Source: Candidatus Tidjanibacter faecipullorum
GTDB taxonomy: Bacteria > Bacteroidota > Bacteroidia > Bacteroidales > Rikenellaceae
NCBI GenBank assembly: GCA_019116245.1
Contig: DXCC01000021.1
Span: 1 to 46,745, forward strand
Direction: 5' to 3'
Length of the DNA stretch: 46,745 bases
The notes under the pieces were generated by a model. The model worked only from the letters and a program-made list of their open reading frames with translations, was not told the DNA's origin and ran no database searches. Of the stretch, positions 15,872 through 30,295 are shown piece after piece (position 1 is the stretch's first letter; each line of letters starts with the position of its first letter). Both the position numbers and the translations under genes were made by a program.

Positions 15872-16207
15872 ATGACAATGGACAAAGTGGATCAGTTCAT
15901 GCTGATCAACGCCAAGTATTTCCGCGAGGAACAGGTACAGCCCCTGCGCAACGCCCTGCTCGCCGCCGATGAAGAGAAATGGAACCTCATCACCTCCATG
16001 CAGTTCAAGGATCCGATGGTCAGCTTCCTGCTGTCGTTCTTCCTCGGCGAACTCGGTGTGGACCGGTTCTATCTGGGCGACACCGGCATGGGCGTCGGCA
16101 AACTGATTACCTGCGGCGGTCTGGGCATCTGGTGGCTCATCGACCTCTTCCTCATCATGGGCGCCACCCGCGACAAGAACTATTTCCGCCTGACCTCCAT
16201 GCTCTGA
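15872..16207 (+). CDS. TM2-domain membrane protein
   Basis: A 111-residue protein. The N-terminal half (1-45) is soluble and charged. The C-terminal half is a TM2 domain: two hydrophobic helices around a short turn, with the family pattern [22 protein letters not shown] (about 53-74) and [13 protein letters not shown] (about 82-94). The role is unknown; TM2 proteins sit in the cytoplasmic membrane. ATG 15872 or the ATG two codons later could be the start. Its TGA stop supplies the first base of the left attachment repeat of the integrated element. In the empty chromosome it would overlap the DUF2752 gene as TGATG, so the two were probably one operon. Confidence 0.9.
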
Positions 16208-16222
16208 TGCCTCCCAAGCATC
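16207..16222 (+). repeat. Left attachment site core (direct repeat)
   Basis: ATGCCTCCCAAGCATC, identical to 29891-29906. Its first base is the last base of the TM2 stop codon. The outer bases ATGC and GCAT form a short inverted pair, as in many tyrosine-recombinase core sites. Confidence 0.9.
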
Positions 16223-16309
16223 AATATCGATTTCATGATTGAGTTACAATAAAATGTATATCAATCATTTATAATGCAAGAACACGTTATGCGTCTATAA
16301 AAGCACATA

Positions 16310-16323
16310 CAATTTGCATACAA
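16310..16323 (+). repeat. Left arm-type repeat
   Basis: CAATTTGCATACAA, identical and in the same orientation to 29753-29766 near the right end. Probable arm-binding site for integrase or an accessory factor. Confidence 0.55.
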
Positions 16324-16334
16324 CAATCCAAAAA

Positions 16335-16352
16335 GGGCGGATCACTCCGCCC
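16335..16352. terminator. Bidirectional intrinsic terminator at the left end of the element
   Basis: GGGCGGA-TCAC-TCCGCCC with A5 before and T7 after works on both strands. On the minus strand it ends the tape measure transcript and overlaps the last codons of the 61-residue gene. On the plus strand it would stop reading from TM2 into the element. Confidence 0.85.
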
Positions 16353-16527
16353 TTTTTTTGCTCCATACGTTAATCGTCTGCCGATCCGTACTTGTGGGGA
16401 CACTCTTGCATTTTTGGGATATGCGCCGCAAGTGCGCCACCAGTTCGTCGATGGTCATAAATACCGTCTGTGTCCCATACTCTCTGACATCTTCACGCAA
16501 TCCTCCTCGTCTCTTTTTCGGGTTCAT
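16342..16527 (-). CDS. Small basic protein after the tape measure gene
   Basis: A 61-residue, Arg/Lys-rich frame whose ATG directly follows the tape measure stop codon, so it is probably translationally coupled. The middle (FMTIDELVAHLRRIS, about 23-37) looks like a helix pair and recalls the first helices of small DNA-binding or excisionase-like proteins, but I would not name a family. The stop codon sits in the loop of the terminator. It occupies the last position of the operon, next to the left attachment site. Confidence 0.55.
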   Translation of the reverse strand: MNPKKRRGGLREDVREYGTQTVFMTIDELVAHLRRISQKCKSVPTSTDRQTINVWSKKRAE

Positions 16528-19500
16528 CTATCGGCTTATCTTTATTCCCTCGCGCGTTCCTCGTTCTATATTGGTACTCATCATACGCATATCTTGCGCC
16601 ATCTGTTCGAGGTATCTGCAGAACCTTGTGTTTTCTTGGATAGCGGACAAATGGAGGTTGGCGACCGATACCTGCTCCTGCATACCTTGACCGTTGGCCA
16701 CGATCATCTCGAATTTCTCTGCGATCGTCATGCCTTGCTGGGCAATATTCCCGACGTTCACATCTATTGAGGCCAGCAATCCTTTTATCGCCGTCTGACT
16801 GCCGTTCAGCTCGTCGATAGAATCCTGCGACGCCTGCGCAATGCCTTTCGCCTCTGCCGTGCGGGAACCCTCGTCGGGCTGGAAAATGTCAATGCCCTCG
16901 CCAGCGGCGGCATCTTGGCCAGTCTGCAAGAAATTATTGTATTCGCTTTGGCTGGCTTGGAGGTCAGCTATCAATCCACTAATCACTTTGGAAATGGCCG
17001 CCGTTTTTTCCTCCTCCGACATATCGGAGGCGTTGATCTCCTGGATCTTCTTTTGCGCCTCCTGCAGTTTGGGCTGGACGTATAGCGAGAACGCCATCTG
17101 CTCGATCCAGTTCTCCAACATCTCGGCAGCCGATTCCGTAAAGTCTTTGGCTGCATCCGTACCGTTGCGAAAGGCACTAACCAACGCATCGCTCAATTCA
17201 GCTCCCAGTTGCCCAAATACGTCGGTGAGGTAGTCGTTCATCTCGGCAACGGCTTCCTCATACCTCTCTGTGTAGTCAATAGCCTGTTGCAGGCGTTCTG
17301 CGTCTGCATCACCCAACTGCCCCGAAGTAACGATACTCTCGGCAAGCTCCTTGTTTAACTCGCCGTTGGCATCAATCAGTTCGGGATACATATCCAGCAG
17401 ATTGTCGTATGTATATCGACCTTTACCCCATCCAAACAATCCGGTTTTCTCAAAACCTGTTTTAACCTTGATCCCTGAAAAGTCGCTGCTCTGAATATAG
17501 TTGTTGAGGTCTTGTTTGGATTGTTTGGCCAAATCGATCGCCTCTTTCGCCCTGCCGTATGAATCGGTGCCAAATATAGTCGTGTACTCTTCAAACGCCA
17601 TTTTCTGCTCAAACAGCAGGTCGTTGTATTCCTTTTGCTGTTTAACTCGCGCCTGTTCGAGGGCCAACAACGTCTCTTGATAGCGTACTTCCGCCTCCAG
17701 AGCGGTCGATGTTAGTGACTGAATCAACCCCAAACCTGCACCTACTGCTGCACCAATAGGACCGCCGATAGAACCGCCGGTTAAGGCCCCCGAAATCGTC
17801 GACTCCATCGCATCCAGCGCAGACCCCATAGTGTCGGCGGCATTGGTAATATGATCGTTGCCTAAAGCCTCTCCAATATTCGACAACGATTCAACCAACA
17901 TATCCCCCCCCTTGCGCAATGTCGAAAAGTCTTGCGACAATCCAGATAACGCATCACTCCAATCGCCGGCACCGATATTCCGAGAAAATAACGCCGAAAG
18001 GTTGGCAGCAAACCGCGTTATGGCCGGCTCCGCCTCGTCTGCTGTATCCCTGATCTCTTTAATGCGCTTACTAATCTCGGACAAAACATTTGCGCTGTTC
18101 TGCAGGTTGTCAAAGGTCTCTTTGCTGATACCAAACTGCAAACCTTTTTCCTCATCCCACTCTCCGGAGGTTATGAAAGACAATGCGTTTTCTGCCTCCG
18201 CTGCCATCGCACGCAGCTCGGACAACGACCTGTCACCTATATCTTGGAACAGACGGCCTATTGTCGAATCGGCATTCTCTATGTCCAAATCAGTCAATGC
18301 CTCCGACAACTGACGCTTTAATATCTCCGCCAGCCACGTATTACCCTCGGCCATCGCATCAGCGATACGCTGGTTATACTCACGAGTTACCGCCTCCCGC
18401 TTTTGCTGAAAATCGCCATACGCTTGTAGGTAGTCATTGAAACTATCCATCTGCACACGCAGATAATCGCCCAAATCCAGCGCGTCCAAATCAATCTTCG
18501 ACGTATCAATTTTCACGGGAACTTTCGCAATGCGCAAAATGTCCACTTTCAGATTTGAAACGTCCGGACTTTTGACGCCCCATTTCTTGCCGGTCAGATT
18601 TTGGTACTGCTTTTCCAACTCCTTCAAGTCCTCACGCAGCTCGTCAATTTTGCGTATTTGCGCATCAGTCCATTCCGTTTGCGACCGCAGTCTGTTCAAC
18701 TCGGCCGACTTCTTGTTGAGGTTATCAACGACATCCGCCAGTTTGGTTATACGCTGCGTTTGATCGTCTGCCCCGCCGCCATTACCGGAGCCACCTCCAT
18801 TAGCGGCTCCACCCTGTCCGAATGCAGTATATATGTTCTGCAGCTCTGTTTTGAGGCTCCTGACGACCTCGAAATACTGAAAAATAGACTTGTTCAAAGG
18901 GCCAAACCCTCTATTAAGCGCATTTATGTCGTATTTATTCAGGACATCTACAACCCCCTGAAAATCGTCATCATTCAATTTCGGCACTAACTCATCCAGT
19001 ATGGCCTGCGCCTGATCTCCCCTGCGTTTTTGTATATATTCTCGCAGATCACCGATAATGCCGGCCTTTTTGTCGGAGGCCGTTTGGATCGCCTCATTTA
19101 TTGCATTGTCTGCCGCCCGCGCTTTGGCCGTCTCCATGATTGCATCTTTGAGCCTGTTTTGTGCGGCGGTCACGTTATCCAACGACTTCACCTCATCCGA
19201 CATCGAGGCCAGCAGGGGGGCATATTTGTCTTGTATCGTCTTTTTGGCATTGGCATATTCATCCGTACCCGATTTGGCTGCTCTCAATTTGTCAAACAGA
19301 CGGTCGAGAGTAGTTATTTCGGCCTGCACCTCGCTATCGTATTGCTTTTGCGTATCAGCGAGACGTTTTGCCGCCGCCTCTGCCTCCGTTTCCGCTGTCG
19401 CTACCTTATACAACAATCGCCCCAGTTCCATAACGGCCATTATGACGGCCGCCGGCAAAAACGAAGCCATTGTAGCTTTCAACGTGGCAAACGCTTTCGA

Positions 19501-20943
19501 GGACAACCGGACCGCAGCCGTAAGAAAACTTTGCGACGCCGTTAATGATTTTGTGGTGGCTTGGCTGATCTTTAACTGCAATGTTTCGGCCTCGATCGCT
19601 TTCGTTTTGGCCTTTACGCTCGCCTCCGCAAGTCTATCGGCCGACACTTTCGCCGCAGACGCCGCCGCACTCTTTTCCTGTTGGGCCAACAATACCGCTT
19701 CACGCTGGGCCTCGATCGCTTTCGCGTCACCCAGTTCCCACGCTCGCTGCAGCTCCTGTTCTTGAATCGCTAAATTTTGCTGGGCCACCGAAACACGCTC
19801 CAAAGCTACCTTATTGCTCCTCTCTGCTGTCGCAAGATCGGCCGCAGCCTGGCCAGCCTCTGCCTGCAGCGCCTGCAAACGAGCCTCCGCTTCCTTTCGC
19901 AATGCAACAAGATTTTCGGCCTGCGCCCTCGTTAGCGTTCCTTTGGCTGCGGCAGCCTCAATGTCGGCCTCTTTGTTTTCATCCTTTATGTCGAGCAATT
20001 CCGAGAGTATGGCCGCCTCTTCCGAGTATGCGACAGATGCAGTCGTGCGCTTTACGGCCATCGTTACGACCTGCGAGGTCTTATATATACCGATCAACGC
20101 AATCAACCGGCCCAGCACAGCGATTACACTTTCGTAATTCTCTACAAGCGTTATCGCCCCTTTCAGCGTGCCGGCAATAACGCCCTCGCTGGACTTACCT
20201 ATGTTGTTAAACATCACCTTAAAGGCATCGCCGAGATTCGACACAAGTCCCGTAATGGTTCCGGCCTGTTTCTGCATAAGGTTGTAGAATCGGCCGCCCT
20301 CGTTTGTCATGTCCTCAATGGCCTTTTGAACTTCGGGGAAGCCGATCTGTCCGGCCTCAACCATTTGCGAAATTTCATCGCGAGTTTTTCCCATAATGGA
20401 GGCCAACGACCCTGCAATATCGATACCCCTATTTTGGAACTGGTATAAGTCCTTTGTGTATAGACGCCCCTGCGTGGCCGTAGTACCGTACAGCCACGCC
20501 AAATCCTGCAGGTTGAGGCTCAATCCGGCCGCCACATTACCCAGTCGGGTCAGAATATCCGTGACGTCCTCCGCAGCAAATCCGTATGCCAGCAAGCGAC
20601 GCGCACCGTCAGCCACGCCCTTTAAGTCGAACGGTGTCTTTGCAGCCAGCTCGACCATTTCGGACATAAGCGCATCGGCTTTCTCCTTGCTCTTTAAGAG
20701 CGTCTCAAAGGCCACTTCCAACTGTTGGAACTCACCGCGAGTTTGGGCAACCTGCTTCACGAGAGAGGCAAACGAAATCCCTGCGCCCACGCTCTTTAAC
20801 GTATGCCCTATTTTGAGTATGGCCGCATCCAGCCGGTCGTAGTCAGTAACCATTCCGGAAACTGCTCTGCGGGCATCTTCTTGCAATTTCTGCAGTTTGA
20901 TTGTGGCTTCCCGCGTATCTATCTTTGCTGTCAGATCAAGCAT
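16528..20943 (-). CDS. Phage tail tape measure protein
   Basis: A 1471-residue protein from the ATG at 20943 (MLDLTAKIDTREA); a TTG further upstream is unlikely because it overlaps dnaB. The N-terminal tape-measure domain covers about 1-260, with KSVGAGISFASLVKQVAQTRGEFQQLEVAFETL-type helices. Long Ala/Glu/Gln-rich coiled coils follow (about 320-470), then a hydrophobic segment near 490-515 (FLPAAVIMAVMELGRLLY), a Gly-rich hinge near 710, and a small-residue hydrophobic stretch near 1105-1130. In siphophages and myophages this protein sets tail length and helps DNA enter the cell. At about 0.15 nm per residue it would specify a tail near 220 nm. No other tail structural gene is present, yet the frame is fully intact. 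Confidence 0.92.
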   Translation of the reverse strand: MLDLTAKIDTREATIKLQKLQEDARRAVSGMVTDYDRLDAAILKIGHTLKSVGAGISFASLVKQVAQTRGEFQQLEVAFETLLKSKEKADALMSEMVELAAKTPFDLKGVADGARRLLAYGFAAEDVTDILTRLGNVAAGLSLNLQDLAWLYGTTATQGRLYTKDLYQFQNRGIDIAGSLASIMGKTRDEISQMVEAGQIGFPEVQKAIEDMTNEGGRFYNLMQKQAGTITGLVSNLGDAFKVMFNNIGKSSEGVIAGTLKGAITLVENYESVIAVLGRLIALIGIYKTSQVVTMAVKRTTASVAYSEEAAILSELLDIKDENKEADIEAAAAKGTLTRAQAENLVALRKEAEARLQALQAEAGQAAADLATAERSNKVALERVSVAQQNLAIQEQELQRAWELGDAKAIEAQREAVLLAQQEKSAAASAAKVSADRLAEASVKAKTKAIEAETLQLKISQATTKSLTASQSFLTAAVRLSSKAFATLKATMASFLPAAVIMAVMELGRLLYKVATAETEAEAAAKRLADTQKQYDSEVQAEITTLDRLFDKLRAAKSGTDEYANAKKTIQDKYAPLLASMSDEVKSLDNVTAAQNRLKDAIMETAKARAADNAINEAIQTASDKKAGIIGDLREYIQKRRGDQAQAILDELVPKLNDDDFQGVVDVLNKYDINALNRGFGPLNKSIFQYFEVVRSLKTELQNIYTAFGQGGAANGGGSGNGGGADDQTQRITKLADVVDNLNKKSAELNRLRSQTEWTDAQIRKIDELREDLKELEKQYQNLTGKKWGVKSPDVSNLKVDILRIAKVPVKIDTSKIDLDALDLGDYLRVQMDSFNDYLQAYGDFQQKREAVTREYNQRIADAMAEGNTWLAEILKRQLSEALTDLDIENADSTIGRLFQDIGDRSLSELRAMAAEAENALSFITSGEWDEEKGLQFGISKETFDNLQNSANVLSEISKRIKEIRDTADEAEPAITRFAANLSALFSRNIGAGDWSDALSGLSQDFSTLRKGGDMLVESLSNIGEALGNDHITNAADTMGSALDAMESTISGALTGGSIGGPIGAAVGAGLGLIQSLTSTALEAEVRYQETLLALEQARVKQQKEYNDLLFEQKMAFEEYTTIFGTDSYGRAKEAIDLAKQSKQDLNNYIQSSDFSGIKVKTGFEKTGLFGWGKGRYTYDNLLDMYPELIDANGELNKELAESIVTSGQLGDADAERLQQAIDYTERYEEAVAEMNDYLTDVFGQLGAELSDALVSAFRNGTDAAKDFTESAAEMLENWIEQMAFSLYVQPKLQEAQKKIQEINASDMSEEEKTAAISKVISGLIADLQASQSEYNNFLQTGQDAAAGEGIDIFQPDEGSRTAEAKGIAQASQDSIDELNGSQTAIKGLLASIDVNVGNIAQQGMTIAEKFEMIVANGQGMQEQVSVANLHLSAIQENTRFCRYLEQMAQDMRMMSTNIERGTREGIKISR

Positions 20944-20962
20944 TTTTTTAGTGTAGTTTTTG

Positions 20963-22303
20963 TTAGAATTCAGGGTAATCCTCAACCCGCGTCATCGCGC
21001 CGTTATGCCGGAATAGAATTATTCCGGTTTGCCCGTTACGGTGTTTTGCGACAATCAGCCGGCCGGCATTCTCTGCCGGAATCCCGTCGGCGACAAAATG
21101 TTCGCCTCGCATTTCGGGACGATCTACAAACAGCACCATATCGGCATCCTGCTCGATTGCTCCGGATTCCCGCAGGTCGGAAAGAATGGGCGTCTTATCG
21201 GCGCGGGCCTCTACCTGTCTGCTCAACTGCGCCAGCAAGACAACCGGCACCGACAGCTCTTTAGCCAGCAACTTTGCCGCCCGCGAAATACCGGCCACCT
21301 CCTGCTCGCGGCTGGTGTTGCGCCCCGACGGTTGCAATAATTGGAGGTAGTCAATCACCACCATCCCGCATCGTCCTTGTTTCGATAGCGGAATAACCTG
21401 CGACCGAATATCTCGCATTGTCAGGTTGGCCGCATCGTTAATCAAGATCGGCAGCGTTGAGGTATTTCCGGCCGACACCTCCAACCGCTTCCAATCGTCA
21501 CTCGTGAGATCACCCACTTTGATCCGCCCTTTGCTCACGCCGCTCTGACCGGCCATAATGCGACCGGCCAACTCGGAGGCCGACATCTCCAGCGAAAACC
21601 AACACACCGGCGTACCCTGCCGTGCGGCGGCCAGCACGAAATGTTGTAATATGGCGGTCTTACCCATCGCCGGCCGACCGCCGAGAACGATAAGCTGGCC
21701 TCTCTGCCATCCGCCCGTAATGTTGTCGAGTGCATTAAGGCCGGTTGCTATTCCGGACGGCGTGCCAGCCTTAAAATTCCTTGACCGCTCCTCAACGTTG
21801 GCCATCTCCTGCCTGATCGCATCGCCCAAAGAGATCATATTTCCGCCCGTTACCGCCGACTGGGTGATTGCGTCAATTTGGTTGCAGGCATATCCGATAA
21901 TGTGGCCAACATCCCTACTACTGTCGGCCACATACGCCGTCAGGTTGGCAGCAAACCGAGCAATACGGCGGCGGACCGCTTCCTGCGCTATAATCATAGC
22001 GTGCGCCGTCACATCCTTTCCGCTGGCCACCTGTTGGGTCAAATCCACAATATGCACCCGCGCCTGCGCTTTGTCTCCCTTGAAAGCAGACAGCACATTT
22101 GGCCGTCTCGCAACTGTAAATATATCAATCGCTTCTCCTGCATCGAACATCGCAACAAGCTCGGCGAAAATAGCCGCATTCGTTGCGTCCGAAAAAGCCT
22201 CTTTATCGAGAATGCGCACCACGTCGGCCAGCATCGCCGGCTCCAGCAGCAAAGCACCCAACAACGCAGCTTCCTCGCGTTCCGTATCCGCACTCATGTT
22301 CAT
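20963..22303 (-). CDS. Replicative DnaB-type helicase of the element
   Basis: A 446-residue DnaB-like protein. The N-terminal helical domain is about 5-100 and the RecA-like motor about 165-440, with Walker A GGRPAMGKTA, Walker B MVVIDYLQLLQPSG, and the H4 loop region LAQLSRQVEARADKTPILSDLRESGAIEQDAD. It is much shorter and divergent from a typical chromosomal DnaB, as expected for a mobile-element copy. It should unwind the element's DNA at its replication fork. Its ATG overlaps the stop of the upstream gene (ATGA), and the tape measure gene follows after 19 bp. A helicase directly before a tape measure gene is an unusual order. Confidence 0.93.
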   Translation of the reverse strand: MNMSADTEREEAALLGALLLEPAMLADVVRILDKEAFSDATNAAIFAELVAMFDAGEAIDIFTVARRPNVLSAFKGDKAQARVHIVDLTQQVASGKDVTAHAMIIAQEAVRRRIARFAANLTAYVADSSRDVGHIIGYACNQIDAITQSAVTGGNMISLGDAIRQEMANVEERSRNFKAGTPSGIATGLNALDNITGGWQRGQLIVLGGRPAMGKTAILQHFVLAAARQGTPVCWFSLEMSASELAGRIMAGQSGVSKGRIKVGDLTSDDWKRLEVSAGNTSTLPILINDAANLTMRDIRSQVIPLSKQGRCGMVVIDYLQLLQPSGRNTSREQEVAGISRAAKLLAKELSVPVVLLAQLSRQVEARADKTPILSDLRESGAIEQDADMVLFVDRPEMRGEHFVADGIPAENAGRLIVAKHRNGQTGIILFRHNGAMTRVEDYPEF

Positions 22304-22830
22304 CGCGTTTTACGTTCAACATGTTCTGTCTTGGCGTCTGCGGATATTGCGAGGCGCATATTCCTAACAACGCGGATTGCATTCACAAAATCAGCGTAGT
22401 AGGATAACGAAACGATCCGATACAGAATCTTGCAGAACGCATCCGTTGTCATGGCCGGCGACCACAACAGTAACTTCACGCGCTCCTCAAACAGCGTGTC
22501 GATCTCTTTCTTTGTGCGCAGCGTAGCGATAGCGATAATCTCGGCCACCTCCTTTGGTTTCTCGGCACAGACAGTCCAAAGCCGCTCCACGACATCGTCG
22601 GGCTTATTGCTATTCAGCGCGAGATTAAGATCGAGAAGCCGGCGCGCAATCAGCCCCAGCCTGCCGAGCTGGAATGGGTAAATGTGCAATGTCATCACCT
22701 TGCCGGAGGCGTCCTCCAACTCGAAGCTATCCACTTCGGCAGCCGTGCCAACTTTGCCCGCCATTTCATCACATACCCCGCATTCGCTGTTGTCGTAGGA
22801 CGGGGTCATATCTTTCTTAAAATTTTCCAT
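22300..22830 (-). CDS. Probable phage tail assembly chaperone
   Basis: A 176-residue protein from the ATG at 22830 (MENFKKDM). An in-frame ATG at 23001, 3 bp after the upstream stop codon, would add 57 basic residues and cannot be excluded. The body has a short beta-like start (KVMTLHIYPFQLGRLGLIARRLLDL) and helices with EKPKEVAEIIAIATL, then LYRIVSLSYYADFVNAIRVVRNM. This pattern resembles tail assembly chaperones that precede tape measure genes in Bacteroidetes phages; I judge by pattern and position, not by a search. No slippery site for a G/GT-style frameshift is obvious. If correct, chaperone and tape measure are split by the helicase gene. Confidence 0.5.
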   Translation of the reverse strand: MENFKKDMTPSYDNSECGVCDEMAGKVGTAAEVDSFELEDASGKVMTLHIYPFQLGRLGLIARRLLDLNLALNSNKPDDVVERLWTVCAEKPKEVAEIIAIATLRTKKEIDTLFEERVKLLLWSPAMTTDAFCKILYRIVSLSYYADFVNAIRVVRNMRLAISADAKTEHVERKTR

Positions 22831-23004
22831 CTTGCTATTGGTTTTGTGGCATAATTGCCTCGACAGATAAGATTCGCTAACAATCACATCGAGACAATGC
22901 CTGTTTTTGGTTCTTTTTAGGCCCGTAATTCGACTTATTCCACAATTCCGACCACCTATGCCGGAAAAATGTTTTAATCGAAAATTCGGGCTGTTTTCCA
23001 TTTT

Positions 23005-23706
23005 TTACTCTAACGGGGTTCGGCTCGAAATGACCTTGTAGGCTGGAGGGACGGGACTGGGCGTGCTTGCGGCGGCCTTGTTGTCTGTTCCAAACCACAC
23101 GGCACGTACTTTCTGCTGCCAGCTCCGCACCGGCTTGCCGTTACTATCACGCCACCCTCCGGCAGCGTAGTATTCGTAGGCCCTCCGTCCAGTTTCGGCG
23201 TTCTGACCGTTGGCCACAAAGTACGCAATTACCTCTTCGGCCGTAGGCGGATTATCGGCTACCAAAGCGTGTGTGCGGCGCGGGGAAACCGCGCCTTTCT
23301 CTTTGGAGTATTTCTCTTTCTTTTCGTTTTCGTTTTCGTTTATATTGCTTGTTTTTAGCTTGTTTTTTGGTTGTTTCTTGGTTGTTTTTAGGTTGTTTTT
23401 AGCTTGTTTTTTGGTTGATTTTAGGTTGTTTTTAAGTGCGTTTGCATTGCCCGCCGGCGCACCTCCCAACTTGCCGTTCAGATATTTTGTGAGGCCAGAT
23501 TGCAAGATCGGCTGTATCATCATCCAGCATAACGACGAGCTACTTCCCATACTATCAACGTCAGGAAGGGTTCCATCAAGAGCATAATTTGCAATAGCCT
23601 TATAAAGAGAAAGTTGCTCCTCCGGCGCTATTCGATCGATAGCATCTCGAAAACTGCGATAAAACGTAAATCCGGCGCGTTCTGCGATACTTGTTTTGCT
23701 GCTCAT
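23005..23706 (-). CDS. DUF6291-like replication protein with Lys-rich repeat linker
   Basis: A 233-residue protein in two parts. Residues 1-90 resemble the DUF6291 fold found in phage and plasmid replication proteins (FTFYRSFRDAIDRIAPEEQLSLYKAIANYALDG). Residues 92-124 are three 11-residue Lys/Asn-rich repeats (KNNLKSTKKQA, KNNLKTTKKQP, KNKLKTSNINE). Residues 150-205 carry a second domain (PTAEEVIAYFVANG, AYEYYAAGGWRDSNGKPVRSWQQKVRAVW) often seen at the end of phage replication initiators. The likely role is origin recognition or helicase loading for the DnaB two genes downstream. It overlaps its neighbour at 23703-23706 by ATGA. Confidence 0.7.
   Translation of the reverse strand: MSSKTSIAERAGFTFYRSFRDAIDRIAPEEQLSLYKAIANYALDGTLPDVDSMGSSSSLCWMMIQPILQSGLTKYLNGKLGGAPAGNANALKNNLKSTKKQAKNNLKTTKKQPKNKLKTSNINENENEKKEKYSKEKGAVSPRRTHALVADNPPTAEEVIAYFVANGQNAETGRRAYEYYAAGGWRDSNGKPVRSWQQKVRAVWFGTDNKAAASTPSPVPPAYKVISSRTPLE
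23335..23433 (-). repeat. Three tandem 33-bp AT-rich repeats inside the replication gene
   Basis: Units are 23433-23401, 23400-23368 and 23367-23335. The first two are nearly identical at the DNA level; the third diverges after about 18 bases. They encode the Lys/Asn linker and form a strongly T-rich plus strand. Repeats inside an initiator gene can serve as its origin, as in the lambda O gene. Confidence 0.7.
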
Positions 23707-23927
23707 TGATTACCTCCAGTCTTGTGTTGCAGGGCGCGAGTGTAGCCCGCCAACGAATGAATGAATGCCTGTGCCAGTCCGGACGTGAGGACGGGTTCCT
23801 GCCCTGTCATTATAGCCAGCATAGCACGGAAAATCTCTACCTGCTCGGCCTGCGGAAACATCGAGAATGAAGCGTAGAAATTCGCCTCCAGTTCGTCGCG
23901 CAGCCGCTGTTCATTGGTCTCGATCAT
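23703..23927 (-). CDS. Small hypothetical protein
   Basis: A 74-residue, mostly helical, acidic protein of unknown function. It contains an amphipathic central stretch (FSMFPQAEQVEIFRAMLAIMTGQEPV) and no known motif that I recognise. It overlaps both neighbours by 4 bp (ATGA), so the cluster 24163-20943 is read as one translationally coupled operon. The neighbours are DNA-binding and replication proteins, so a replication accessory role is possible but unproven. Confidence 0.75.
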   Translation of the reverse strand: MIETNEQRLRDELEANFYASFSMFPQAEQVEIFRAMLAIMTGQEPVLTSGLAQAFIHSLAGYTRALQHKTGGNQ

Positions 23928-24163
23928 CGCACACCTCCTTTCCGGATAAAGTATCTCTTAAACCGGCCGCCGTGAACAGCCTTAACCCACTCGTCGGCGA
24001 TCATGACACCGTCGTTACGCAGGCAGCGAATTACACTCCTCGGATCAGAAAGACCGAGCCTAACCGAAATGTCGGCCGCAGAATACCTGTTGCCGTCGGA
24101 CAGCAGGGATAGCACGCGGCGTTTGTGGTATCCTCTACTAAATTTATTGATACAAACTTCCAT
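23924..24163 (-). CDS. Winged-helix DNA-binding protein
   Basis: A 79-residue protein from the ATG at 24163 (MEVCINKFSRG); a TTG upstream at 24199 would overlap the previous gene. Residues 15-60 read as a winged helix: RRVLSLLSDGNRYSAADISVRLGLSDPRSVIRCLRNDGVMI, with a recognition helix at DPRSVIRCLR and a wing ending in FKRYFIRKG. This form is common in Bacteroidetes phage genes near replication modules. It probably regulates or aids replication. It starts 4 bp after the preceding gene. Confidence 0.75.
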   Translation of the reverse strand: MEVCINKFSRGYHKRRVLSLLSDGNRYSAADISVRLGLSDPRSVIRCLRNDGVMIADEWVKAVHGGRFKRYFIRKGGVR

Positions 24164-24167
24164 AAGG

Positions 24168-24515
24168 CTACTTTTTTTGTCTGTGAGCAGATCGGGCAAT
24201 CTCCAGCGCGCTGTTTGTGTGCGGCGTCAAACGTGAGGCGTTTTGACTTTCCATCCACTTCAAAAGCTCACGTTTGGAAAACGACAACTGATTCCCGATT
24301 TTCCTGTAAGGAATGCTGTTGTATTGCGTTTTTTTGTAGATAGAATAGATTGATATTTTGTAACCATTGATTGCCATAAACTCAATGGCCCCAGCCGCAT
24401 CAACAATATCGGGACCCTCCGCAGGTTCCGATCTTTCTTGTCGGCTAACAACATTTGCGACAGCTTCTTCCATGATAGCTATCAGCTCTTCTTTTGTAGT
24501 TACAACTAACTCCAT
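24168..24515 (-). CDS. Helix-turn-helix / excisionase-like protein
   Basis: A 115-residue protein. The N-terminus (1-40) is helical and acidic. Residues 42-92 resemble the MerR/excisionase-type domain common in Bacteroidetes mobile elements: FMAINGYKISIYSIYKKTQYNSIPYRKIGNQLSFSKRELLKWME, where YRKIGNQLSFSK is the wing and the last helix follows. It is a candidate excision factor (Xis) or a regulator. It is the first gene of the replication/tail operon, 222 bp after the early operon's terminator. Confidence 0.8.
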   Translation of the reverse strand: MELVVTTKEELIAIMEEAVANVVSRQERSEPAEGPDIVDAAGAIEFMAINGYKISIYSIYKKTQYNSIPYRKIGNQLSFSKRELLKWMESQNASRLTPHTNSALEIARSAHRQKK

Positions 24516-24681
24516 AATTTGAACACTATTATTAATTGTTTGCGGTAAAGGTCTGTACGCACGGCAACAAAAACAAACTCGCTACAAAATTTTTTTCAAG
24601 AAAAATTTGTTTTATATTCACAATGAAACTATATTTGCGGTCGCATTTGATACAAACACAAACAAGGCAACTGAAAAAGAC

Positions 24682-24706
24682 AAGCGCAGGCGTATGTCCT
24701 GCGCTT
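24682..24706. terminator. Bidirectional terminator between early and replication operons
   Basis: AAGCGCAGG (24682-24690), loop CGTATGT, CCTGCGCTT (24698-24706), with A5 before and T-rich sequence after on both strands. It ends the early operon at 24738. The rest of the gap 24516-24737 holds an AT-rich inverted repeat near 24585-24610 and no gene. Confidence 0.85.
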
Positions 24707-24737
24707 ATCTTTTTCTCCGCAGAACCATCAGAGCGTC

Positions 24738-24989
24738 TTATATCTCTGTGTGATTCTCTTCGGAGAGAATGCGATGCTTAACGTTGGTCATTGCGAGTTT
24801 TAATACCTCGCTTTGGGCTTCGGCCAGGGCATTGTAGGCCGCCTCGTTAATGGCATCGCCCTGCAGTCCATATTCTCGTTCTGACACATCGGACAGTTCT
24901 CCGAACAGGTCGGATAGCTTAAGGTATATCCCGATATATCCTTTCGTGGCGTCGCTCAATCCGACACCTGCCAAATCTTCAACTTTCAT
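24738..24989 (-). CDS. Small acidic hypothetical protein
   Basis: An 83-residue, Glu/Asp-rich, mainly helical protein (EDLAGVGLSDATKGYIGIYLKLSDLFGELSDVS at the start). No motif recognised. It is the last gene of the early minus-strand operon, 12 bp after the previous one and just before a strong terminator. Small acidic early proteins of phages and satellites are often regulators or DNA mimics that block host enzymes; that reading is only a possibility here. Confidence 0.65.
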   Translation of the reverse strand: MKVEDLAGVGLSDATKGYIGIYLKLSDLFGELSDVSEREYGLQGDAINEAAYNALAEAQSEVLKLAMTNVKHRILSEENHTEI

Positions 24990-25001
24990 ACTTTTTCTGC
25001 C

Positions 25002-25319
25002 TTATGCATAATATTCGTTAATGGATTCTGCCGCAGATATGATCTCGGAAATCACACACACCAAATTCGTTATTTCGCTAACCCTTATAGGCGTTAGGTC
25101 TGTCGCCTCTCGCAGCTCTTGAAGCACTTTACGCGCATCCTCATCGCTGTTCCTGCTCGTGTTTCCGTATCCGTTTTGTATGTCGGATATCAGCGCGAAA
25201 TAGTCGCTAACAAGCCTCGATAATTTGGCTATCGTTGAGGCCGCACCGTAGTTCGACAACGATTCCGCCAGCCGGTCAATATCACACGTATTGACTGGGA
25301 TTGTGTTTTGCTGTGCCAT
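25002..25319 (-). CDS. Small hypothetical protein
   Basis: A 105-residue helical protein (LAESLSNYGAASTIAKLSRLVSDYFALISDIQNGYG; later SEITNLVCVISEIISAAESINEYYA). No catalytic or metal motif is seen and no family recognised. It starts 1 bp after the DUF2693 gene stops and belongs to the same early operon. Its composition and size resemble the gene that follows, so they may work together. Confidence 0.65.
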   Translation of the reverse strand: MAQQNTIPVNTCDIDRLAESLSNYGAASTIAKLSRLVSDYFALISDIQNGYGNTSRNSDEDARKVLQELREATDLTPIRVSEITNLVCVISEIISAAESINEYYA

Positions 25320-25320
25320 A

Positions 25321-25638
25321 TCAATATGCAGTTATAAAATTCTCTACTCTGAACGAGCGCCAGCCGCCGGCTTCGACATCGTAATATTTGACCGTTCGAC
25401 CGTCGTCGGGACGGCCGGTGCCTTTTATTGCGGAGGCTACATAGTGCAAAGTACCATTCGCTCTCCTCATCGATCCATCTGCTTTCTCGTAAGCAAAGGA
25501 CACGATACCCGCACGCATAGCGCGAACAAGACGGTATATCGCCCACGCTTTCGACAGGCAGACGGGGAACATCTTTCCCGTCGAGCGCGCTATCGCCCAC
25601 GCGCGCCGCATAATCATTTGTAAGTCGTTACGTTTCAT
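25321..25638 (-). CDS. DUF2693-like (WYL_2, SH3-barrel) protein
   Basis: A 105-residue protein from the ATG at 25638 (MKRNDLQMIM). The N-terminal helix AWAIYRLVRAMRAG is followed by a strand-rich part with the family pattern IVSFAYEKADGSMRRANGTLHYV and YYDVEAGGWRSFRVENF. This fits the DUF2693 / SH3 beta-barrel fold group frequent in Bacteroidetes mobile elements. These proteins are presumed nucleic-acid or ligand binders with unknown roles. It lies between the 93- and 105-residue early genes. Confidence 0.75.
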   Translation of the reverse strand: MKRNDLQMIMRRAWAIARSTGKMFPVCLSKAWAIYRLVRAMRAGIVSFAYEKADGSMRRANGTLHYVASAIKGTGRPDDGRTVKYYDVEAGGWRSFRVENFITAY

Positions 25639-25743
25639 ATCTGTTTTCCTTTCCGTTTCTCTACGCCCCTGCGGCCGTATTACCGCAGGGGACCACATAC
25701 CCGTCTTGGTCTGGTGCAAAAATGCAAGTTGAGAGAGACGCCG

Positions 25744-26025
25744 TTATTCGTTCAACATGTTCTGCAGCAGGCTGGTTGCCTCTTTGTCCTCGTCGCCATC
25801 GCCGTCATACGCCGCCAGCACTTCGATTTTCTCATCTTCGATCCACCAACTGGGGGCCGTCCAATAGTCTCCTTTGTCCTCGCCGATCGTTGCCGTATAG
25901 CGAACATCGGCTGAATAATCGTCGGCGTACACCTCGAATGTGTCGCACTCGCCGCCCAACTGGGCAATATGTGCGAATATCTCTTTGGCCAGCGTTGCAA
26001 GCTCGGTATGTATGGCGGTTGTCAT
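25744..26025 (-). CDS. First gene of the early operon, acidic hypothetical protein
   Basis: A 93-residue very acidic protein with a predicted helix (LATLAKEIFAHIAQLGG), then strands (CDTFEVYADDYSADVRYTATIG) and an acidic C-terminus (GDGDEDKEATSLL). No family recognised. It follows a near-ideal promoter at 26058-26089, making it the first early gene expressed away from the XRE repressor. A position right after the early promoter and a strong negative charge are typical of host-take-over or anti-defence proteins, which is inference. Confidence 0.7.
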   Translation of the reverse strand: MTTAIHTELATLAKEIFAHIAQLGGECDTFEVYADDYSADVRYTATIGEDKGDYWTAPSWWIEDEKIEVLAAYDGDGDEDKEATSLLQNMLNE

Positions 26026-26057
26026 GACGTTATATCTTTGGTTTTGTTTTTACAATG

Positions 26058-26089
26058 CAAATATAACTTAAATTATAATCCAATCCAAA
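26058..26089 (-). promoter_or_regulatory. Early promoter of the element, -33 and -7 boxes
   Basis: On the minus strand TTTG (26089-26086), a 20-bp spacer, then TATATTTG (26065-26058): an exact Bacteroidetes promoter for the early operon starting at 26025. It faces away from the XRE gene, forming a divergent switch region (26026-26202). Confidence 0.8.
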
Positions 26090-26161
26090 TATCAACCACA
26101 AAAAAATTACCATCATAGTATATTTTTACCTGCATTATTATACTAATAAAGAAAAGAACTG

Positions 26162-26175
26162 TATCTTTGCATACA
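26162..26175 (+). promoter_or_regulatory. -7 box of the XRE repressor gene with TTTGCATACA repeat
   Basis: TATCTTTG (26162-26169) matches TAnnTTTG 33 bp before the XRE start. It overlaps TTTGCATACA (26166-26175), the same word present in both arm-type repeats at the element's ends. Confidence 0.6.
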
Positions 26176-26202
26176 GATAAAGGCTATTAAACTATTGATA
26201 TA

Positions 26203-26451
26203 ATGGCAAAATTTCGGATATTGGAGTTATGCAAACAGAAAGGCATAACGCAAAAGGATTTGGCGGAAAAAATTGGCATGACGCCCGTAGGTTTGGCGAA
26301 AGCGGCTAACGGTAATCCCACATTTGAGACTCTCGAAAAAATAGCAACAGGGTTGGGGGTATCTGTCCCGGAACTATTCGCTCCGCAGCCGACGAACACG
26401 ATTGCCTGCCCGCATTGCGGAAAAACAATCAAAATAGAGAAAGGAGAATAA
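26203..26451 (+). CDS. XRE-family repressor with C-terminal zinc-ribbon-like motif
   Basis: An 82-residue protein. Residues 5-58 are a Cro/CI-type helix-turn-helix (KQKGITQKDLAEKIGMTPVGLAKAANG, then TFETLEKIATGLGVSVPELF). Residues 68-77 contain CPHCGKTIK, half of a zinc ribbon, so metal binding might require a dimer. It is read opposite the early operon and is the likely lysogeny repressor. The gene ends 2 bp before the RhuM gene, which has an unusual Shine-Dalgarno-like AAAGGAGA before its ATG. Confidence 0.88.
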   Translation: MAKFRILELCKQKGITQKDLAEKIGMTPVGLAKAANGNPTFETLEKIATGLGVSVPELFAPQPTNTIACPHCGKTIKIEKGE

Positions 26452-26453
26452 GT

Positions 26454-27443
26454 ATGACTACAGACGAAATAATTATTTACAAATCGGAGGACGGAGCTAT
26501 TAAACTCGATGTCCTCTTTTCCGAAGAAACTGTTTGGTTGACACAAGATCAGATGGCTGAATTATTCTGCAAAGCCAAATCAACCATTAACGAACACATT
26601 CAAAATGTTTATGCAGAAGGAGAACTTGTGGCATCCAACACTATGAGAAAATTCGGAGATTCCGAATTTTCTACAAAACCCACTAATTATTACAACTTAG
26701 ATGTTGTCATCTCAGTAGGGTACCGTGTTAAGTCCCCACAAGGTACGCAATTCCGAATTTGGGCGACACAGAGATTACGGGATTACATTATCAAGGGGTT
26801 CGCACTCAATGATGAGCGTTTCAAATCCGGATCCACAATGAACTATTTCAAAGAACTCCTTGAACGCATACGGGAAATACGCACCGAGGAGAGAGTATTT
26901 TACCAACAAATAAAGGAAATATACAAGACAAGTTGGGATTATGACCCCAACGCACAAATAACGCTTGACTTTTTTGCAGAGATACAAAATAAACTTCTTT
27001 GGGCCGTAAGTGGCAAGACAGCGGCAGAACTGCGCTACTACAGAGCTAACCATACATTGCCAATGATGGGATTAACATCTACTGCAAAAGCAGGCGTTGT
27101 TCGCAAATCAGACATAACCATAGGGAAGAACTATCTTAACAAAGATGAGTTGCAAGCTCTTAAACTCATAGTAGAACAATACCTCGCATTTGCCGAAGCT
27201 CAAGCATTAGCACATAACAAAATGAGTATGCGTGACTGGATAGACAAACTAAAGTTAATTCTTACCATGAATAACCGGAATATACTAGAACACTCCGGAC
27301 GCATATCAAAAGAACTTGCCGACAAAAAGGTTATTGAAGAATACAACGCCTATAAAGAAGAACAACGCAGGCTCCGCCAACTTGAAAGTATAAAGGAACT
27401 TGACAGAGACCTTAAACGACTTAAAAGCGGAGAGAATAAATGA
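26454..27443 (+). CDS. RhuM-family protein
   Basis: A 329-residue protein from the ATG at 26454 (MTTDEIIIYKSEDG). It matches the virulence RhuM family: FSEETVWLTQDQMAELFCKAKSTINEHI at 20-48, then VGYRVKSPQGTQFRIWATQRLRDYIIKGF, a long helical middle, and YYRANHTLPMMGLTS. The N-terminal part looks like the winged DNA-binding domain of phage antirepressors. RhuM was named from a Salmonella pathogenicity island; its biochemical role is not established. It is co-transcribed with the XRE repressor, so it is expressed in the integrated state. Confidence 0.88.
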   Translation: MTTDEIIIYKSEDGAIKLDVLFSEETVWLTQDQMAELFCKAKSTINEHIQNVYAEGELVASNTMRKFGDSEFSTKPTNYYNLDVVISVGYRVKSPQGTQFRIWATQRLRDYIIKGFALNDERFKSGSTMNYFKELLERIREIRTEERVFYQQIKEIYKTSWDYDPNAQITLDFFAEIQNKLLWAVSGKTAAELRYYRANHTLPMMGLTSTAKAGVVRKSDITIGKNYLNKDELQALKLIVEQYLAFAEAQALAHNKMSMRDWIDKLKLILTMNNRNILEHSGRISKELADKKVIEEYNAYKEEQRRLRQLESIKELDRDLKRLKSGENK

Positions 27444-27511
27444 ATTTTCCATATGATAAATACACAAACATACCTGTTTGCGAGAAAACAATAACCCTAA
27501 AAGCGGAATAA

Positions 27512-28087
27512 ATGGAACCGGCAACCATACAAAGCCTGATTTACGAGATACGCGGCCAGCGCGTCATGTTGGATCGAGATTTGGCCGAACTGTATCAAGT
27601 AACAACAAGCGCGCTTAATCAGGCCGTAAAGCGGAATATCAACCGTTTCCCGCCGGACTTCATGTTTCAACTAACGGACGCCGAAACTGAAAATTGGAAA
27701 TCACAAATCGTGATAACCAATTCGGTCAATATGGGACTTCGGCGCAATCCTTACGCATTCACCGAGCAGGGCGTATCGATGTTGTCCGCCGTTCTCCGAA
27801 GTCCGATTGCCGTGCAAACAAGCATCGCCATAATGCGGGCCTTTGTCGCTTTACGGAACTACATTACAACCACAACAACGGTAACGGCGGAGATAGACGA
27901 ACTGCGGGCAAAATTTGCCCTGCTGGAGCGCGCCAACGAGGACAATACCGCAGCGATCAACGATCTTTCGGAGGACATTCGGCGCGAGCTGGACGACATT
28001 TATATGGCCATCGCTGCGCTGTCCGTAAAACCGGCCAAAACAGAACAACCACGCCAGCGGATCGGATACAACGTGGAGGAAAAATAG
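27512..28087 (+). CDS. ORF6N-domain protein (antirepressor-like)
   Basis: A 191-residue protein. The ORF6N domain is at about 1-95, with IYEIRGQRVMLDRDLAELYQVTTSALNQAVKRN and the FTEQGVSMLSAVLRS signature at about 88-102. A coiled coil follows (AEIDELRAKFALLERANEDN). ORF6N domains are found in phage antirepressor and KilA-N proteins that bind DNA or repressors. It lies 68 bp after RhuM on the same strand. Its GC content is higher than RhuM's, which suggests a separate origin. An antirepressor for the XRE protein, or an exclusion function against related phages, are both possible. Confidence 0.85.
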   Translation: MEPATIQSLIYEIRGQRVMLDRDLAELYQVTTSALNQAVKRNINRFPPDFMFQLTDAETENWKSQIVITNSVNMGLRRNPYAFTEQGVSMLSAVLRSPIAVQTSIAIMRAFVALRNYITTTTTVTAEIDELRAKFALLERANEDNTAAINDLSEDIRRELDDIYMAIAALSVKPAKTEQPRQRIGYNVEEK

Positions 28088-28469
28088 GGGCATATTATGA
28101 TTGTGCCAACCACGCCCGACGGCATGATCCGAAAACAGTCAGGTGGCCGTTACCGTTGAGGCCGTTTGCGTTTATCAAGCCGGCACTATATGGGGGCGAT
28201 CTGCTGCGCACAAAAATGCCGAGGTCGGTTTTCCGACTTCGGCACTAATTCAAACAGTTACGGCGTATTTGTGCCGGCTTCGGGCTGGGACAATACGGCT
28301 CCACTTGACGTACACCCCATCGGCTCGAAATCGCGCGTTTTTGGCCCATTATTTCAATCCTGCATCTTGCTGCACACTTGCCCTATTCTTGCACTTGGAT
28401 CGCCCTAAACTCGCCCTTTGGGGCTTCCTGCGCCTTTGCGTAACCTTTGGGTGCTGGAGGTGGTCGGCA
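28088..28469. other. 382-bp gene-poor stretch between ORF6N and integrase
   Basis: Short frames exist but none has a convincing start or family. The stretch holds the integrase terminator (28212-28244) and three CTTGC words at 28366, 28377 and 28388, exactly 11 bp apart. This looks like a control or DNA-binding region. Confidence 0.55.
28212..28244 (-). terminator. Terminator downstream of the integrase gene
   Basis: On the minus strand TGCCGAAGTCGG (28244-28233), loop AAAA, CCGACCTCGGCA (28228-28217), followed by TTTTT (28216-28212). Twelve-base stem with one mismatch. Confidence 0.8.
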
Positions 28470-29720
28470 TTACTCATTGTCTGCCGGCGGGCATTCGGGG
28501 AAATCGGTAAGCAACATCGCGTTTTTCTCCCGCTCCTCCCGCTCAAAGCAGGCTAAATAATTTTCGGTAGTTTTAAGGTCGCTATGCCCTAACGCTTCGG
28601 ATATGTATGCAATATTCGTTCCGCTCCTCTTCAACACGGTAGCGAACGAATGGCGGGCGACATATGTCGTTATCTTGCCGATCCCCAACATCTCGCCGAG
28701 TTTGCTTGTGTATTTGTTCGTCAGGTACGTAAACTCCGCACATCTCGACCGTATGTGTTCCTCGTCTTTTTCTTTGCCTGATAGAATAGGGAATATGAAG
28801 TTTTCAGGCTCCGGACTATTTCCGCGACGTCGGATAATGTCTCGCATAGGCTCCGTCACGATAACCCGTATCTCCTTTCTCGTGCTGCTCGTTCTCTCTG
28901 TCTTGCGGCGGACAAATGATATTTCGCCGTCATACATATTCTTAAACTTCAATCGGGCAAGATCGGCAACATTGATACCATTGCACAAATACAGGAACAT
29001 CCAGTAATCACGGTATTTCTCCAGCGTCGCATCGCCTGAATATCGGGCCATCTTGCCGATTTGCTCTATTGTTAAAGCCATCTTGCGGCCCTCTCCGCCC
29101 TTTATGGAAAATTTACCCTTACCAAACGGATTATCGCTTTCCTTAATGACGCCCTCGGTGCGGGCCTCATACATGATCGTGCGGAGCTGCCGCAGGTATA
29201 TTGATATTGTCGTTTGCCTCAACCCCCGCCCTTTCTCGTAATTCTCATACCGCTGCAGCCACGTCGGGGTAACATCGGAAAACGGTATCTCCTTGCCGGC
29301 GAACCGCTCGAATGCGAGCAACGCAGTTTTCGCAATATACGCAGACCCTATTTGTCCGGCATTCCGAAACGCCTCTATTCTCGCGACGAACGCCGTGTTG
29401 ATTGTTCCCGTCATGGCCCCCGAAAGGCGCGTATTAAGGGCCGTAAACGAAAAACATCCGGCATCGGTAAGGTCCTTTACGGCGTCTCTGATTATATTGA
29501 AACTCGCCTCAACATCCTCGCGAATCCCGACTATATAATGCGCTTTCGAGGTCGGCATCTTACGCCACTCCTCCGGCGTCATAGTCTTGCTGGTAGAGTA
29601 ATATTTTTGCTTACGAGCGAAGCAAACCTGAATCTTTATAGGGTATTTACCGTCTGATTTTGGACGTCTCGTGTCCAATACCGACAACACCGTTACTTTA
29701 TCTTTTGAGTACCTGAACAT
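28470..29720 (-). CDS. Tyrosine recombinase (integrase) of the element
   Basis: A 416-residue protein from the ATG at 29720 (MFRYSKDKVTV); an ATG at 29762 would place the start inside the arm repeat. It has the Bacteroidetes arm-binding and SAM-like core domains (about 1-200) and a catalytic domain with Arg in NGINVADLARLKFKNM, and His-x-x-Arg/His-Tyr in ARHSFATVLKRSG, ALGHSDLKTTENYL. The nucleophile is the Tyr in TENYL. It should catalyse recombination between the 16-bp att cores. It is transcribed away from the right attachment site, 170 bp inside the element. Confidence 0.95.
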   Translation of the reverse strand: MFRYSKDKVTVLSVLDTRRPKSDGKYPIKIQVCFARKQKYYSTSKTMTPEEWRKMPTSKAHYIVGIREDVEASFNIIRDAVKDLTDAGCFSFTALNTRLSGAMTGTINTAFVARIEAFRNAGQIGSAYIAKTALLAFERFAGKEIPFSDVTPTWLQRYENYEKGRGLRQTTISIYLRQLRTIMYEARTEGVIKESDNPFGKGKFSIKGGEGRKMALTIEQIGKMARYSGDATLEKYRDYWMFLYLCNGINVADLARLKFKNMYDGEISFVRRKTERTSSTRKEIRVIVTEPMRDIIRRRGNSPEPENFIFPILSGKEKDEEHIRSRCAEFTYLTNKYTSKLGEMLGIGKITTYVARHSFATVLKRSGTNIAYISEALGHSDLKTTENYLACFEREEREKNAMLLTDFPECPPADNE

Positions 29721-29752
29721 AACACGATCTCTGTTTGCATACGTTGCGCGTG

Positions 29753-29766
29753 CAATTTGCATACAA
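29753..29766 (+). repeat. Right arm-type repeat
   Basis: CAATTTGCATACAA, identical to 16310-16323. A further partial copy, GTTTGCATACG, lies just to its left near 29732-29743. Confidence 0.55.
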
Positions 29767-29805
29767 ACTTAACAAATACCTGCAAACAATGGCAAATAAA
29801 CTTCA

Positions 29806-29813
29806 TATATTTG
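29806..29813 (+). promoter_or_regulatory. Outward -7 box at the right end of the element
   Basis: TATATTTG matches TAnnTTTG and points out of the element towards DUF2752, 77 bp before its ATG. No clear -33 box; it may restore expression of genes cut off from the TM2 promoter. Confidence 0.35.
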
Positions 29814-29890
29814 CATCGCATATCGCTTGTTATTCAGGACAAAAGAAAATAACCGCCAACAACGGCAACAATAGCAAAACGTAATTATTT

Positions 29891-29906
29891 ATGCCTCCCA
29901 AGCATC
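29891..29906 (+). repeat. Right attachment site core (direct repeat)
   Basis: ATGCCTCCCAAGCATC, the second copy of 16207-16222, and also the first 16 bases of the DUF2752 gene. Confidence 0.9.
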
Positions 29907-30295
29907 TGTACACCATCTCCGCGCTGCTGTCGGCCATTGCCCTGCTTTGGCTGGCGGCAGCCTTGCTTTGGACCCCGTCCGCCCTAACCACCGTCTGCCC
30001 CTTCCGGCTGGCCACTGGATGGCCCTGTCCAGCCTGCGGATCGACACGCGCCGTCGTGGCCATCCTTCGCGGCGATTTCGGCGAGGCCCTGCGGCTGAAC
30101 CCCAACGGCTATGTGCTGTGTGCCCTGGCGGCAACGGTGATCCCGCTGCTCGTGTGGGACGGCGTGACGGGTCGGCGAGCCTATCTGCGGTTCTATCTCT
30201 ACACCAACCGCCTGCTGCAGCGGCGCATCGTCTGGATTCCCCTGCTCGTCCTGCTGGCCGCCAACTGGCTCCGCCTGCTTGTCCGGGGCATATGA
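29891..30295 (+). CDS. DUF2752 membrane protein
   Basis: A 134-residue protein with three or four hydrophobic helices (about 8-30, 70-92, 112-130). The DUF2752 signature is TTVCPFRLATGWPCPACGSTRAVVAILRGDFGEALRLNP (about 33-71), with three conserved Cys. It is an inner-membrane protein of unknown function, often next to TM2 genes in this phylum. The ATG coincides with the right attachment core, so the reading frame is preserved after integration. Before the insertion it overlapped the TM2 stop codon. Confidence 0.88.
   Translation: MPPKHLYTISALLSAIALLWLAAALLWTPSALTTVCPFRLATGWPCPACGSTRAVVAILRGDFGEALRLNPNGYVLCALAATVIPLLVWDGVTGRRAYLRFYLYTNRLLQRRIVWIPLLVLLAANWLRLLVRGI

Follow-up and report, generated by a model that had tools for sequence, protein, structure and literature searches.

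The stretch of DNA analysed here, referred to as the window, is the whole of contig DXCC01000021.1 (46,745 nucleotides; C17 among the 32 contigs of a 1.86-Mb genome) of Candidatus Tidjanibacter faecipullorum, a member of the Rikenellaceae in the Bacteroidales. It carries an integrated element of 13,684 bp, measured from repeat to repeat, with a full-length phage tape measure protein (TMP) gene and no recognised head gene. The element is flanked by a TM2 gene and a DUF2752 gene, and both of its ends are defined. An exact 16-bp repeat, ATGCCTCCCAAGCATC, forms the attachment-site copies at 16207-16222, on the TMP side at the end of the TM2 gene, and at 29891-29906, at the start of the DUF2752 gene; these are the only two copies in the genome, and none occurs in 22 congeners. 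An empty site was sought in one congener, G249 (G and L denote our genome and locus labels), which has the closest TM2 gene (88%). Its locus L399 matches the left flank (15872-16222) at 136-486 with 89.5% identity and the right flank (29891-30273) at 471-853 with 75.6%, the two flanks being adjacent and overlapping by exactly the 16-bp site. Because the repeats lie at the ends and the G249 flanks overlap by precisely that repeat, the element is considered complete.

Only two virion-related genes are recognised in the element, the TMP gene and a gene for the G part of a tail assembly chaperone. The TMP (16528-20943, minus strand; PF20155, E = 4e-25; phrog_9959, E = 6.8e-207) has 1471 residues and is intact. 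The putative chaperone (22300-22836, minus) has 178 residues and is 43-49% identical to proteins located upstream of the TMP in phage loci L032, L033, L035 and L036 of the same bacterial family. Between the two lies the gene of a DnaB-like replicative helicase (20963-22303, minus; PF03796, 2.7e-84), an arrangement that differs from the phage loci; this DnaB is 43-49% identical to that of ten related elements. The ten minus-strand open reading frames (ORFs) between 16342 and 25319 were searched against both Pfam and PHROGs, the six further ORFs between 25321 and 29762 against Pfam only. None matched a terminase, portal, capsid, baseplate or lysis family, and within the listed ORFs neither head, packaging or lysis modules nor broken remains of them were found.

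Read from the integrase end, the integrase (minus) is followed by ORF6N, RhuM and helix-turn-helix (HTH) genes on the plus strand and then by a minus-strand operon of early genes with WYL_2, HTH_17-like, DUF6291, chaperone, DnaB and TMP genes and a 61-residue ORF, so that transcription is not unidirectional. The tyrosine integrase (28470-29762, minus; PF00589, 2.6e-13, with PF13102 and PF17293) is 65% identical to that of a related element in genome G004. The plus-strand genes encode an ORF6N (KilA-N type) protein (27512-28087; PF10543, 3.4e-35), a RhuM-family protein (26415-27443; PF13310, 1.3e-94) and a Cro/CI-type HTH repressor (26203-26451; PF01381, 1.6e-13). On the minus strand follow a conserved early protein of 93 residues (25744-26025; 59% identity to the G004 element), the WYL_2 protein (25321-25641; PF10902, 7e-22; 77% identity to the G004 element and 38-72% to other loci), two small early ORFs without Pfam match (25002-25319 and 24738-24989) and an HTH_17-like, AlpA/excisionase-like protein (24168-24515; PF12728, E = 0.0022, below the curated cut-off), which has homologues in relatives. 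A winged-helix-like protein of 91 residues (23924-24199, minus), with weak HTH matches and with homologues preceding the replication gene in relatives, and a 74-residue ORF without Pfam match (23703-23927, minus) lead to the DUF6291 protein (23005-23706, minus; PF19808, 6.8e-12). The latter is a probable replication initiator or loader, and its position before DnaB is kept in relatives. The last gene of the operon is the 61-residue ORF (16342-16527, minus), whose sole homologue (E <= 0.05, among the fetched loci) lies at the corresponding end of the G004-type element. The reading frames of the operon are open. The coordinates and gene content given by the first-pass annotation, made from the letters of this DNA, were thus confirmed by the repeats and family matches, including its intact TMP and its lack of terminase, portal, capsid, baseplate and lysis genes.

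Close to the ends, the window holds two exact copies of TTTGCATACAA, at 16313-16323 on the TMP side and at 29756-29766 on the integrase side (both plus). At up to one mismatch the motif occurs three times in the window against a mean of 0.78 in shuffled sequence, where three were reached in 5 of 100 shuffles. AATTTGCATACA lies near both ends of the G004 element too, and the copies may be integrase arm sites.

In phage loci L032, L033, L035 and L036 the G-like frame overlaps a second open frame, at -1 as read by eye, in the manner of lambda G/GT. The window protein ends short of this G/T overlap and the DnaB gene follows directly, and on this gene order the absence of the T part in the element is firm. 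The start of the protein is uncertain, its homology beginning at about residue 36, and its match to the PHROG chaperone family reached only E = 0.16. Since its AlphaFold model is poor (pLDDT 58.5) and a Foldseek search with that model gave no PDB match at E <= 0.001, the identification as the G part of a tail assembly chaperone rests on synteny. Together with the identity to the phage proteins this agrees with the first-pass annotation, which had named it a likely chaperone.

When the window TMP was used as a single-protein query, neither genome nor viral contigs gave matches; the relatives were reached by whole-genome and alignment searches. Ten further small elements with an open TMP gene were found (L158, L321, L359, L374, L444, L446, L099, L100, L150 and L111). 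All eleven TMP frames, the window's included, are open, and seven of the elements share the window's TMP family. No capsid, portal or large terminase was recognised in the ten, part of their ORFs being scanned (as in L444, L446, L150 and L111), and PHROGs searches of 33 unlabelled ORFs in seven elements (95 ORFs listed) found no head, packaging-motor or tail family. Three of the ten (L099 and L100, PF16677; L446, PF03592, 2.8e-39) have a Pfam-recognised small terminase beside the TMP and no recognised large one.

A DnaB of the window's type is present in 13 of 268 genomes of the bacterial family (E <= 1e-90), with an integrase homologue on the same contig in 10 of the 13. Four of these genomes (the window's, G172, G153 and G009) have a TMP or TMP-like gene downstream of DnaB, while G148 and G150 could not be judged as their contigs end soon past DnaB; TMP is a minority cargo in this element family. 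The TMPs of L099 (G172; 971 residues) and L100 (G153; 1021 residues) match PF10145 at about 1e-31 and are followed by the small terminase. L150 (G159) encodes this TMP (91.8% identity) and small terminase (93.9%) too, its DnaB end being at the contig edge. In the genome of L100 another element, L153 (9205-10351; G153:C1, about 989 kb), carries a 96% identical small terminase, a TMP remnant of 110 residues at 88% and a different integrase. L111 encodes a TMP-like protein of 732 residues (phrog_3336, 4.6e-11), and no integrase was found in its contig stretch. The TMP-like protein is preceded by one of 1034 residues (4581-7685) without Pfam or PHROG match, 25% identical over 164 residues to a protein upstream of the TMP in phage-like L155, and perhaps a tail tip protein. 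Two elements with related integrases, L103 and L113, encode a small DUF5681-like protein (weak, below cut-off), and L113 has a D5/DUF5906-type primase in place of DnaB.

An alignment search with DnaB against genome contigs gave 80 matches at 33-40% identity, mostly host DnaB by look, of which only L158 was mapped and used; of 80 matches in viral contigs only L238, L239 and L240 were mapped. L158, in a metagenome-assembled genome named Bacteroides sp. UBA939, has integrase, DUF6291-like, DnaB, RusA, TMP (1635 residues; phrog_9959, 6.4e-159), Fic-like (by eye), HTH and WYL_2 genes, and a search of that genome for Terminase_6N, the only terminase family tried, returned nothing. A TMP-profile scan of viral contigs, from which 80 of 261 confirmed loci were kept, yielded at least three such elements by their markers (L321, L374 and L359, the integrase of the last called by eye only), few others being mapped. 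The window's TMP family occurs in 24 of 393 genomes of the order, its own included (E <= 1e-40). Among the 17 of 27 listed TMP places that were fetched, two are such elements (L444 and L446), 11 have T upstream, L438 and L447 have head genes by homology to the G004 phage, and L449 and L450 are unmapped. The genome of L446 is a single contig of 4.3 Mb, in which the element lies between two 63-bp repeats at a distance of 13,405 bp; the repeats are 92% alike and look tRNA-like by eye. L446 carries an integrase, a DnaD-like loader, the small terminase, a 1556-residue TMP and a 156-residue phrog_5377 protein. Because the phrog_5377-family protein of the G004 phage also matches a tail-completion/neck family (7.8e-6), L446 may hold one more virion part.

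The T part was also sought in these elements. A tblastn search with four T peptides (E <= 1) matched nothing in the window element, L158, L359, L374, L321, L100, L111 or L150; in L099 its single match (E = 0.088) falls within the TMP. With a T profile, T was detected close to the TMP start in 54 of 80 viral-contig loci; of the 26 loci where it was missed, three are satellite-like. Non-detection by itself is thus not diagnostic, and it says little for L099, L100, L111 and L150, whose TMPs belong to other families. A G-chaperone profile, built from one TMP family, recognised nothing in the other ten TMP-bearing elements; L099, L100, L150 and L111 are not expected to match it.

The history of the TMPs was examined in a tree of 35 proteins, built on 280 conserved N-terminal columns, with seven sequences from satellites and 28 from phage loci of our choosing (25 with T upstream; L038, L438 and L447 taken as phages by neighbouring genes). 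It requires at least seven changes between satellite and phage, each imposed by branches of good support. The TMPs of the window and of the G004 phage are sisters (support 100/99), the former on the longer branch (0.58, compared with 0.054), and the transfer probably ran from phage to satellite. A prophage that lost its other genes by decay or deletion, and kept the TMP and chaperone by chance, would also have these genes close to those of phages, and L153 with its TMP remnant fits such a history. It would not, however, explain the open operon frames, the DnaB gene between chaperone and TMP, the two intact ends and the recurrence of the same body plan, with TMPs at seven places of the phage tree in elements without recognised capsid, portal or large terminase. 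On these grounds a decayed prophage was rejected as very improbable. Length was considered as a sign of short tails and dropped, given that the satellite TMPs of the window's family, at 1297-1764 residues, overlap those of phages.

The G004 element (L031/L051-L053, G004:C20 39627-52700) is related to that of the window by its integrase, WYL_2, ORF6N (67%), DnaB (47%) and the 61-residue ORF; at the place of the window's TMP it has a small-terminase-like gene (phrog_309, 4.6e-12). It is inserted in a phage region, interrupting the chaperone gene there within its G part; the terminase, portal, capsid and tail genes of this region were named by eye from order and sequence. As long as the element stays integrated, the chaperone gene of the prophage is split, and integration of a satellite into its helper is possible. 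The left and right junctions of G004 type are also seen in L238 and L318 of IMG/VR (one metagenome; proteins 96.8-100% identical apart from one edge ORF), which argues against misassembly unless G004 stems from the same reads. As the nearest source of the window TMP, the G004 phage lineage is pointed to as the likely helper type. In the window's own genome a resident phage-like region with a large terminase and portal- and capsid-like genes was noted at G000:C32 57114-70471 (L148, L149).

The DUF6291 gene of the window contains about eight 11-bp repeats (23349-23434), and tandem 6- and 11-bp repeats together span 23317-23434. Tandem repeats in the replication gene are found in 10 of 11 elements surveyed (G004 included, L150 left out), the exception being L359. 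At least about four copies are present in six of them (window, L374, L099, L111, L444 and L031), and 2.1-2.6 copies in L158, L321, L100 and L446, where equally short repeats occur elsewhere in the elements. The origin of lambda sits inside gene O. By this likeness the window array is a possible origin and suggests self-driven replication. Outside the element, the GC content of the window at 1716-7457 is mostly lower (0.43-0.54, compared with about 0.6). This stretch, in which a TetR-like regulator, methyltransferase-like ORFs and two transporter-like ORFs were noted by eye, may be a separate island.

The phage-inducible chromosomal island-like elements (PLEs) of Vibrio, found in a different phylum, carry a serine recombinase and depend on phage ICP1. 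The principle that a satellite supplies the tail ruler was published for them in March 2026 (PMC12987554). In PLE1, PLE4 and PLE11 of Vibrio cholerae the satellite provides TMP and tail assembly chaperone and the helper the remaining tail and the head; Western blots, mass spectrometry and tmp deletion demonstrated chimeric tails, virions contained the satellite TMP, and transfer fell by 96 to 99.9% when tmp was deleted (PMC12987554). The window element, known from its genes, resembles them in this and differs, as far as gene content is compared, in its tyrosine integrase, its DnaB/DUF6291 replication and a G-only chaperone related to a GT-type phage gene. PLE11 is reported to have a baseplate hub protein in its tail cluster, whereas the window element has no baseplate family match at the Pfam and PHROG thresholds used. 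PLEs are the closest tested precedent for the mechanism considered here.

Other satellites share fewer traits. Putative tmp genes are mentioned for some capsid-forming phage-inducible chromosomal islands (cf-PICIs; Extended Data Fig. 10 legend, PMC12987554), which are described as making their own capsids (PMC10803314), unlike the window element with no capsid family match. With phage-inducible chromosomal islands (PICIs), including the Staphylococcus aureus pathogenicity islands (SaPIs), it has in common an integrase with a specific attachment site, a repressor and a replication module, and relatives L099, L100 and L446 have small terminases; it differs in lacking a small terminase or primase match and in its transcription, reported as unidirectional in Gram-negative PICIs (PMC6092414). 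Like phage-inducible chromosomal minimalist islands (PICMIs) it is small and without capsid remodelling genes, and of the PICMI markers integrase, AlpA (PF05930 or PF12728), DUF3987/DUF5906 primase and Fis (PMC10803314), it has the integrase, together with tail genes, the HTH_17 match mentioned above and no Pfam match to primase or Fis. The first-pass annotation had regarded a satellite with its own tail ruler as a new way of using a helper, a novelty that the PLE work and the putative tmp genes of cf-PICIs have overtaken. A title and abstract search, which covered few subscription papers, gave no paper on a TMP-bearing satellite besides PMC12987554, whose main text has no word beginning with Bacteroid. 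The same search found nothing in print on a Bacteroidota lineage, repeated capture, a G-only chaperone or DnaB between chaperone and TMP. The element is thus a recurrent, non-Vibrio variant of a published principle.

The reading we favour, and hold to be reasonably probable, is that of an integrative phage satellite of a Bacteroidota host, which would supply the ruler and G chaperone and take tail tube, head and probably the GT chaperone from a helper. When a tailed helper grows, the element would excise and replicate by its own initiator and DnaB, and make its own TMP, coated by its own G-type chaperone. In lambda, G binds the TMP and T the tail tube protein (PMC5009743). The helper would give the T-bearing GT chaperone, which recruits the tail tube protein, as well as tail tube, tail tip, capsid and packaging motor, and the element DNA would leave in particles with chimeric tails whose ruler and DNA-injection protein are those of the satellite. 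The gain may be escape from phage or host factors that target the helper TMP, or a better fit to the host envelope.

An unlikely alternative is that TMP and G-only chaperone are weapons, made early to poison or compete with helper tail assembly, leaving a tailless helper while the satellite uses unmodified helper tails or another route. In lambda, tail assembly requires G and GT in a proportion of about 30:1 (PMC5009743), and extra G without T could disturb a helper; blocking of tail assembly is known from Tai systems (PMC11364771) and from Rta in PLE11, that is, from prophages and satellites. A decoy could, however, be short, whereas the satellites of this family keep long TMPs. Constraint over the whole length of the TMP is also seen in L100 and L150, where the ratio of nonsynonymous to synonymous substitution rates, calculated with our own Nei-Gojobori script, is 0.16 over 1021 codons and below 0.25 in each of six segments (the last of 21 codons). 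In PLEs, moreover, tmp deletion lowers satellite transfer (PMC12987554), and the G chaperone is recognised in none of the other ten elements by the one-family profile. It is still less probable that the TMP is an accessory gene with another job, such as superinfection exclusion or membrane activity, unrelated to virion assembly. Satellites are described with antiviral defence genes (PMC10803314) and TMP-driven exclusion is conceivable, but the TMP lies in a replication/packaging operon beside a small terminase or chaperone, not among the regulators.

Several observations weigh against the satellite reading. The G-type chaperone is seen in the window element only (n = 1), in whose ORF scans no small terminase or packaging-redirection gene was recognised, and the substitution ratio stems from a TMP family other than the window's. 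Most related elements lack a TMP, the remaining DnaB-positive genomes having other or no cargo in the stretch seen, and L153 has the remnant only. Among the 80 viral loci the T profile also misses T in 23 that are non-satellite by markers. Marker genes, moreover, are shared with phages: T occurs together with WYL_2 in L319 and L327, in L327 with DUF6291 as well, and an HTH protein encoded on the G004 phage contig is 93% identical to that of the window. A search of the element's own genome with one terminase family (Terminase_6N) revealed no complete helper phage; the single gene of this family there stands with portal- and capsid-like genes of another type. The larger prophage sharing the TMP family, which the first-pass annotation suggested looking for, was not met with there, as the window TMP has no homologue elsewhere in this genome. 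The proposal of a satellite is nevertheless supported by the checks that were run, transfer by a helper being deduced from the genes.

Tail-part swapping is suggested to be a repeated trick of such hitch-hikers. We propose, at slightly less than even chances, that the Bacteroidota hold a large unrecorded class of satellites with repeated independent capture of phage TMPs. Within it the window's type would split tail initiation of the lambda type, with ruler and G-only chaperone coming from the satellite and tail tube and frameshifted GT chaperone from the helper, so that the tail could be built only in a helper-infected cell. The missing T part makes this division of labour directly testable, and the elements offer a second, apparently unrelated system for asking why a satellite needs its own TMP. 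If capture of the TMP happened at least seven times in one phylum, a change of tail ruler would be a general strategy of satellites.

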